In this document: positions 62,671 through 64,000 of the stretch, one piece after another
Layout: the number at the start of each line of letters is the position of its first letter
How positions within the stretch are numbered: the stretch's first letter is position 1
Translations under genes and position numbers: made by a program
Notes under the pieces: generated by a model
What the model was told of the DNA's origin: nothing
What the model saw: the letters and a program-made list of their open reading frames with translations, nothing else
Databases searched by the model: none
Assembly: GCF_023072675.1 (NCBI RefSeq)
Contig: NZ_JALLGL010000001.1
Span: 1-64,000 of the forward strand
Source: Streptomyces sp. XM83C
Lineage (GTDB): Bacteria; Actinomycetota; Actinomycetes; Streptomycetales; Streptomycetaceae
Reading direction: 5' to 3'
Length of the DNA: 64,000 nucleotides

Positions 62671-63369
62671 GTGGGGGATGCGAAGAGCGAAGCGGACCGG
62701 CGGATCGGGCGGCGTGCTCTGCTCATCGGCGGCGCGGCGGCGGCGGTGGGCACGGCGGTGCTGGCCCGGGACGAGCTGGCGCACCTGTGGTGGCGGATGC
62801 CGGGGGTGGAGAAGCCGCGGGTGGCGGGGGCGGTGGACTTCGCGGGCGCGCGCTGGGTGGAGGCGTCACCGGCGAACTACCGGCGCGCGGACCGGCCCGA
62901 CGACTACGACATCGACCGCGTCGTCGTCCATGTCACCCAGGGCAGCCGGGCGAGCGCGGTGAAGGCGTTCCAGGACCCGGGGCACAAGGCGGCGGCGCAT
63001 TACATCGTGGGGCAGGACGGCCGGATCACGCAGATGATCCGGGAGCTGGACGTGGCGTTCCACGCGGGCAACCGGGAGGTCAACGAGCACAGCGTCGGTA
63101 TCGAGCACGAGGGGTTCGTGGACCGCCCGCAGGATTTCACGGCGGCGATGTACGCGGCTTCGGCGCGGCTGGCGGCGGGTATCTGCCTCCGGTACGGCAT
63201 ACCCGTGGACCGGGAGCACATCCTGGGGCATGTGGAGGTGCCGGGGACGGACCACACCGATCCGGGGCCGCACTGGGACTGGGACCGGTACATGGGGCTG
63301 GTGCGGCGGGAGTACACGGCCGCGGAGAATGCCGGAAAAAATCAAGAATCACCCTCTTCCGCCCAGTGA
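62671..63369 (+). CDS. N-acetylmuramoyl-L-alanine amidase (Amidase_2), Tat-exported
   Basis: The GTG at 62671 gives 232 residues; an SD is not evident. The N terminus has a twin-arginine-like signal ('[20 protein letters not shown]') and an Amidase_2 (PGRP-like) domain with zinc ligands in '[10 protein letters not shown]', 'SVGIEHEGF' and '[13 protein letters not shown]'. It probably cuts the lactyl-L-Ala bond of peptidoglycan outside the cell. It is divergent from mnmA. A TPP riboswitch begins about 30 nt after the stop. Confidence 0.88.
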
Positions 63370-63378
63370 GAGGCGTTC

Positions 63379-63580
63379 TATCCTGGAGGCAAGGCCTACG
63401 GGACGAGTGAGGGAGTCCGAGCGTCGTAGCCGACGTGGGCGTGAGACCGAGGTTTCCGCCGATGCCGACGTCGACGGTCGGGCTGAGAGGCCGGAAGGCG
63501 ACCGCCGTGAGGTGGCTGCCGGAAGGCGACCCCCACCACCTGATCCGGACCATGCCGGCGAAGGGAACCCGTCTCGTGGG
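63379..63580 (+). ncRNA. TPP riboswitch with no downstream thiamine gene
   Basis: The + strand carries all core parts of the THI element. P1 is ACGAG (63403-63407)/CTCGT (63573-63577). The extended P3 is GTCCGAGCGTCG (63415-63426) with CGACGGTCGGGC (63472-63483, one G.G mismatch). The pyrimidine sensor CTGAGA is at 63483-63488, ACCTGAT at 63538-63544, P5 CCGG (63545-63548)/CCGG (63555-63558), and the pyrophosphate sensor GCGAAGGGA. A -10 like TATCCT (63379-63384) stands 15-20 nt before it. Downstream there is no gene on this strand, only hairpins and the antisense of the cysteine desulfurase. Confidence 0.85.
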
Positions 63581-63628
63581 CCGCTTTTTCGTGCCCGTGC
63601 GGCCCGAACGGCCCCCGCTCCGGGGCCG
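63578..63628. terminator. Double hairpin between the riboswitch and the cysteine desulfurase end
   Basis: GGGCCGC (63578-63584) pairs with GCGGCCC (63599-63605) around a loop with TTTTT. CGGCCCC (63609-63615) pairs with GGGGCCG (63622-63628). One or both probably end transcription from both directions; the first lies immediately after P1, as expected of a riboswitch expression platform. Confidence 0.55.
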
Positions 63629-63641
63629 GCGCCTCCGCGGC

Positions 63642-64000
63642 TCAGGTGAGTCCGGCCGCGCGTGCTCGCTCCACCGCCGGGCCGATGGCCTTGGCGACCG
63701 CTTCGACGTCCTCCTCGGTGGAGGTGTGCCCGAGGGAGAAGCGCAGGGTGCCGCGGGCCAGGTCGGGGTCGGTGCCGGTGGCCAGCAGCACATGGCTGGG
63801 CTGGGCGACGCCCGCGGTGCAGGCGGAGCCGGTGGAGCATTCGATGCCCTGGGCGTCCAGCAGGAGCAACAGGGAGTCGCCCTCGCAGCCGGGGAAGGTG
63901 AAGTGGGCGTTGGCGGGGAGGCGGTCGACCGGGTCCCCGCCGAGGATCGCGTCGGGTACGGCGGTGCGGACCGCGTCGATGAGTGCGTCGCGGAGCCGGC
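63642..64000 (-). CDS. Cysteine desulfurase family protein (5' part outside window)
   Basis: The last 118 or so residues of a NifS/IscS-like PLP enzyme are present: '[19 protein letters not shown]', '[20 protein letters not shown]' with the catalytic Cys in GSAC, '[20 protein letters not shown]', and '[10 protein letters not shown]'. It supplies persulfide sulfur for Fe-S clusters, tRNA thiolation (MnmA is 1 kb away) or thiamine. The final 13 nt are separated from hairpins and the + strand TPP riboswitch, which is antisense to it if transcription reads through. Confidence 0.88.

Follow-up and report, generated by a model that had tools for sequence, protein, structure and literature searches.

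Positions 63379 to 63590 on the forward (+) strand of the window, the whole 64,000-nucleotide stretch of Streptomyces sp. XM83C DNA that was analysed, hold an element that is probably, judged from its sequence, a free-standing small non-coding RNA gene combining a TPP-type sensor module with an effector module that would act in trans. It belongs to an RNA family whose pairing covaries, whose promoter is conserved, whose neighbouring genes change and some of whose members have lost the aptamer with the rest of the unit kept. If this reading is correct, a widespread free-standing RNA built on a TPP aptamer would mean that TPP is also sensed by RNAs working apart from any coding leader, within a major antibiotic-producing genus.

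Descriptions of TPP riboswitches usually present them as controlling genes for thiamine synthesis and transport (for example PMC12632268). In the portions of the following papers that concern them, a survey of contiguous riboswitches places them before thi operons (PMC12452182), the two in the reannotated genome of S. lividans TK24 precede thiamine genes (PMC8079986), and thiamine pyrophosphate riboswitches are among the UTR elements of the S. ambofaciens transcriptome (PMC8388888). Within the open-licence literature, as judged by title or the start of the abstract and with subscription papers and supplements outside the scope, no description of an RNA of the present kind was found.

Organisation of the element and its TPP-type core

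A first-pass annotation, made from the letters alone, had described a complete THI-type core behind a TATCCT -10 box, with a closing P1 and a long P3 arm. All of these parts are present on the + strand, with TATCCT at 63379, CTGAGA at 63483, ACCTGATCCGG at 63538 and GCCGGCGAAGGGA at 63554. The element proceeds from the -10 box through P1, P2, the long P3 arm, CTGAGA, the hairpin P3a and the arm P4/P5 to the second P1 strand and lastly GCTTTTTC. P1 consists of 15 pairs and leads directly into this last stretch (63583-63590), which gives a terminator-like end. The neighbours are also as had been described, with a convergent cysteine desulfurase downstream, mnmA nearby and no adjoining thiamine gene; mnmA, on the - strand, sits beyond the amidase gene, on the other side from the desulfurase. 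The features are as follows.

62671..63369, +, upstream neighbour, outside the element: N-acetylmuramoyl-L-alanine amidase (PF01510, 114 bits)
63336..63361, +, upstream promoter region with an A-rich box (AAAAAATC at 63336) and a -35-like stretch, conserved in 127 aligned upstream regions
63379..63384, +, -10 box TATCCT (TATCCT in 39 of 127 loci, TATTCT in 20 of 127)
63393..63408, +, P1 5' strand, partner of 63567-63582, with changes on both sides in 10 of 15 pairs
63411..63413, +, P2 5' strand (GGG), from the consensus structure and pair count
63414..63484, +, long P3 arm, proposed effector module (arm pattern in 68 of 128 copies, including 10 of 11 aptamer-loss copies)
63483..63488, +, CTGAGA, junction J3/2 of the TPP aptamer (116 of 128 copies)
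63490..63527, +, variable P3a hairpin, helices 4 and 5, with changes on both sides in 7 of 8 pairs
63532..63534, +, P2 3' strand, from the consensus structure and pair count
63538..63566, +, P4/P5 arm (ACCTGATCCGG...GCCGGCGAAGGGA), presumably, by analogy, the pyrophosphate-sensor half (CGNAGGGA in 117 of 128 copies, lost in 11)
63567..63582, +, P1 3' strand, pairing with 63393-63408
63583..63590, +, T-rich tail GCTTTTTC, terminator-like (T enrichment after P1 over 128 loci)
63642..64000, -, downstream convergent cysteine desulfurase, 3' end, outside the element (PF00266; stop at 63642)

The RF00059 TPP aptamer and the element have CTGAGA, ACCTGAT..GG and GCG.AGGGA in common, as well as helices P1-P5 in the same order. 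The window element itself contains the conserved core (the CTGAGA junction, and P4/P5 with CGNAGGGA) and each of P1, P2, P3, P4 and P5, in a structure derived from the same alignment that was scored. It differs from the known aptamer in the absence of a thiamine-gene leader role, in the 15-pair P1 with its T-rich tail and in the long P3 arm.

Among Rfam families, RF00059 matches the element stretch best (63501-63583, 26.0 bits, E 0.0033), but the score lies below the gathering cut-off of 54.3 bits. A scan of the whole window at the gathering threshold was empty, and an RF00059 search of the strain's own genome returned three other places, the window element not among them. Across 18 loci with the element or a homologue, 14 score 29.9-46.1 bits and none exceeds the cut-off; the window element (L004 in this larger search), L005, L026 and L028 gave no match there at E 0.5. 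The long inserts in P3 and P3a agree with the low score, and aptamers with such inserts can escape the Rfam cut-off. The cut-off is, moreover, a weak criterion here, because the thiC element of the same genome also misses it. The three other TPP elements of that genome comprise one at 64.9 bits, which passes and precedes an FAD-dependent oxidoreductase gene (PF01266) read as thiO-like, one at 51.9 bits before a solute-binding-protein gene (L002:1501-1608, contig C112) and the thiC element at 43.2 bits (L003:1501-1659, contig C12). As the last two score under the cut-off, annotation at the gathering threshold would overlook both. What is claimed for the window element is a TPP-type core, short of formal RF00059 membership.

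Conservation, distribution and predicted transcription signals

The pairing of the family covaries beyond chance. Of the cells in an alignment of 47 diverse copies made with MAFFT (47 of 71 copies retained by a k-mer filter from 116), 94.8% pair, against 90.0% when shuffled (0/500) and at most 50.9% when slid, the structure having been taken from the consensus of this same alignment, which favours it over the slid control. Changes on both sides occur in 24 of the 43 pairs, compared with 10.3 when shuffled, a count made after 13 predicted pairs had been removed (11 in the arm and 2 in the CTGAGA junction). P1 contributes ten such pairs, with 96% of its cells paired; P2 and P4 contribute none and are both nearly invariant. 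The core is near-invariant over the 47 diverse sequences, and core and pairing are conserved across eight genera of the family. Four single copies, folded individually, give z values against shuffles of -2.3, -0.8, -1.5 and -1.7.

A DNA search of 101 genus genomes gave some match in 96, mostly just the 29-base core of ordinary TPP elements, and the element itself in 28 loci. Of these first elements, 26 were used to build a covariance model (R1), with L026 and L028, which are without P4/P5, left out. This model finds the RNA, of about 190 nt, in 85 of 246 genus genomes with one match per genome. Within the family it finds 49 copies in all, in 46 of 200 genomes and 8 of 17 genera. Scores over the 200 family genomes fall into two groups, 72.3-203.6 bits for the element and at most 50.0 bits for the rest; the shortest aptamer-free copies score 64 bits in the genus search, and, as a check, the ordinary TPP elements of the strain's own genome score 35.1, 23.9 and not at all. 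Among 246 class genomes, which include members of the genus, G514 (122 bits) is the one genome outside the family to hold a clear element; matches in G315 (52.0 bits) and G309 (51.6 bits) and a second one in G514 (51.8 bits) are presumed to be ordinary TPP elements. A pattern scan of named genomes found at least 120 records, and the 80 among the matches listed are all Streptomyces. The neighbour and motif counts given here are based on 128 fetched loci, with the family hits in G235, G201 and G117 outside the set.

Two genomes in the family search carry more than one copy. G225 has the element twice, and G181 has three copies within about 76 kb (L191-L193, C1:133982-210115), the only triple in the 200-genome family listing. 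At another locus (L027:1320-1404) a tRNA gene lies directly upstream of the element.

Putative signals for the start and the end of an RNA accompany the element. The -10 box, scored as the best TATCCT-like hexamer per locus, lies 5 or 6 nt ahead of P1 in 113 of 127 loci, and the A-rich box is placed about 40 nt before it; this box and the -35-like stretch are more strongly conserved in the 63 kstR-group regions than in the other 64. At the other end, T makes up 38% of the 10 nt after P1, compared with 15% of the next 200 (128 loci). Termination at P1 may be weak, since just 19 of the 128 copies have TTTT after it. A conserved -10 box, a T-rich tail and changing neighbours are compatible, at sequence level only, with a promoter and an end that belong to the element independently of any coding gene.

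Genomic neighbours and alternative explanations

The nearest downstream gene, over the 128 loci, is a convergent regulator in 57, a desulfurase in 13, a same-strand SDR/DUF2867 gene in 6 and various others in the rest. The regulator has the Pfam domains TetR_N and TetR_C_20, and at this common site it is taken here to be kstR. The loci form 47 downstream site classes, 24 with a same-strand gene (31 loci) and 23 convergent (97 loci), and they share no common gene. The kstR site is largely inherited, and the 128 loci do not count as independent events. Gene calls came from a codon-composition script that required at least 90 residues of a downstream gene, and some of them may be false. Of eight genomes in which kstR was checked, six with the element elsewhere have none beside kstR (within up to 1.5 kb); in one of the six (G030) a stretch of 33 bases matches the flank of another copy. 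In G554 the element lies beside kstR, and G000 is not informative, its contig ending about 60 bases past kstR. Promoter, RNA and end therefore occur together at different sites, as the neighbours differ and kstR is without the element in genomes that have it elsewhere.

Some downstream genes recur on a smaller scale. A SpoIIE-type phosphatase gene is nearest downstream in three otherwise different loci (L051:7916-9445, L201:4354-5502 and L213:4476-5888). A convergent gene family, N39, lies downstream of the element in four (L205, L208, L193 and L198); the one N39 copy scanned, which is perhaps partial, has no Pfam match.

The interpretation offered in the first-pass annotation is supported in part. 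It had pointed the element at the desulfurase, through an antisense RNA or 3' overlap whose length TPP would set. As a general function this role was rejected, since the neighbour changes between relatives: the 13 desulfurase loci stand beside 57 with the convergent kstR-like gene, and in 24 of the 47 classes the gene downstream lies on the same strand. At the window locus itself, the desulfurase might still be subject to a local antisense effect. In a broader form, TPP would stabilise P1 and end the RNA, and without TPP read-through would silence whichever gene is convergent, the desulfurase here and kstR elsewhere. Such a switch is unlikely, even though in 47 of the 62 kstR loci and 11 of the 13 desulfurase loci the end of the element is no more than 60 nt from the called convergent stop codon or slightly past it, and the B12-controlled antisense RNA AspocR of Listeria offers a precedent (PMC8079631, in the part that deals with it). 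Only 23 of the 47 site classes are convergent, and the partner gene changes. Moreover, the 15 pairs of P1 are almost always kept (96% of cells), a search by eye only for a conserved strand competing with it saw none, and copies at the kstR site that have lost the aptamer keep the T-rich tail too.

It is rather improbable that the element is an ordinary cis riboswitch, the leader of a same-strand downstream gene. The RF00059-like core would suit this, and 31 of the 128 loci have a nearest downstream gene in the same orientation, the same SDR/DUF2867 gene in six cases; these six copies would fit a leader and count against a free-standing RNA. In the remaining 97, however, that gene lies on the opposite strand, and no thiamine-supply gene was found among the same-strand ones: of 24 representatives scanned, one per same-strand class, 16 had a Pfam match, none of them to a thiamine family, and 8 had no match. 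In addition, P1 with its T tail closes the unit.

A similarly poor, if anything slightly poorer, prospect is a miniature mobile DNA element, with P1 as terminal inverted repeats and the TPP core incidental. The location that varies between species, the inverted ends (10-15 bp) and the multiple copies in G181 (three) and G225 (two) speak for it. Against this, each of the 85 genus genomes gives a single match, the promoter that forms part of the conserved unit lies outside the inverted ends and the pairing covaries inside the aptamer. Carriage as phage or plasmid cargo was likewise rejected, as phages and viral contigs (the latter in one exact-pattern scan) gave no match and plasmids a single partial one, in Embleya (49% of query); these results also count against a mobile element. 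Finally, the relic of a lost thiamine operon that the first-pass annotation had named as the simple alternative agrees with the lack of an adjoining thiamine gene in the window but is scarcely credible given a near-invariant core and covariation over 47 diverse sequences, conservation of core and pairing across eight genera, a promoter that is kept and three other TPP elements in the same genome (before the thiO-like, solute-binding-protein and thiC genes).

Loss of the aptamer and a proposed mode of action

Eleven copies, all at the kstR site, are without part or all of the aptamer, with a -10-like box, P1 and the T-rich tail retained. Four have lost P4/P5 and five CTGAGA together with P4/P5, and two, of 121 nt, are reduced to little more than P1 and the P3 arm; a recognisable arm is kept in 10 of the 11. 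A further copy (L198) has CTGAGC in place of CTGAGA and looks decayed. Loss is the simpler direction of change, because the aptamer is complete in the copies from other genera. In a tree of KstR and its neighbour, whose bootstrap had not settled and in which the 121-nt pair stands at the midpoint root, the loss copies form three groups, two of them starred, with full-aptamer rows between them and once within, the row within being L125, which sits in the group that lost P4/P5 (84/72). Three separate losses are the simplest reading of this tree, although not a proven one.

For the free-standing RNA, the following sequence of events is proposed. The element's own promoter (-10 TATCCT) would start a roughly 200-nt RNA with a TPP-type aptamer fold, and the 15-pair P1 would close the molecule and, with the T-rich tail, end transcription. 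The sensor module would be the TPP aptamer itself (P2, the CTGAGA junction and P4/P5), and the effector module the P3 arm with P1. Binding of TPP would lock the aptamer half and in this way alter either the presentation of the P3 arm or the stability of the RNA, such that a target elsewhere, RNA or protein, might follow the thiamine state in trans. This stays close to the sensor-only RNA that had been suggested at first. The most detailed version, in which an independent sRNA gene of streptomycetes changes site between species, unites a full TPP aptamer as sensor and a fast-evolving P3 arm as effector in one trans-acting RNA, and has shed its sensor in three lineages to leave ligand-independent forms, is put forward tentatively, at slightly less than an even chance.

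The nearest functional precedents are SreA, Rli55 and AspocR of Listeria, and the nearest structural one is the HMP-PP riboswitch. SreA/SreB, Rli55 and AspocR resemble the proposed RNA in that a ligand-sensing RNA works, or controls a working RNA, away from the downstream coding region; they differ in sensing SAM or B12, and SreA doubles as a genuine leader for a transporter operon (PMC8079631). The account of riboswitch-linked Listeria RNAs in that paper, whether trans-acting, protein-sequestering or antisense, describes no TPP case in the part concerned with them. The HMP-PP (thiS motif) riboswitch, as portrayed in part of PMC6478431, also has an aptamer enclosed by a terminator stem and a thiamine-related ligand, but its aptamer is unusually small, often lies beside thiS and senses HMP-PP, whereas the present element has a full TPP-type core and no downstream thiamine gene.

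A single effector function for all copies is doubtful, as the P3 arm pattern is present in 68 of the 128 and the arm differs in other groups. A target pairing with the arm sequence GGAGTAGCCGACT was sought through its 13-nt complement in 10 genomes, where the nine matches were seven of the elements themselves and two scattered sites, with no recurring target; a reversed control pattern gave five matches in 10 genomes. The natural aptamer-free copies, being at the same locus as full ones, provide a ready comparison of sensor and effector. The two smallest of them fold no better than shuffles (z -1.2 and -1.1), and two copies that lost the aptamer as a whole fold far better (z -6.4 and -5.1).
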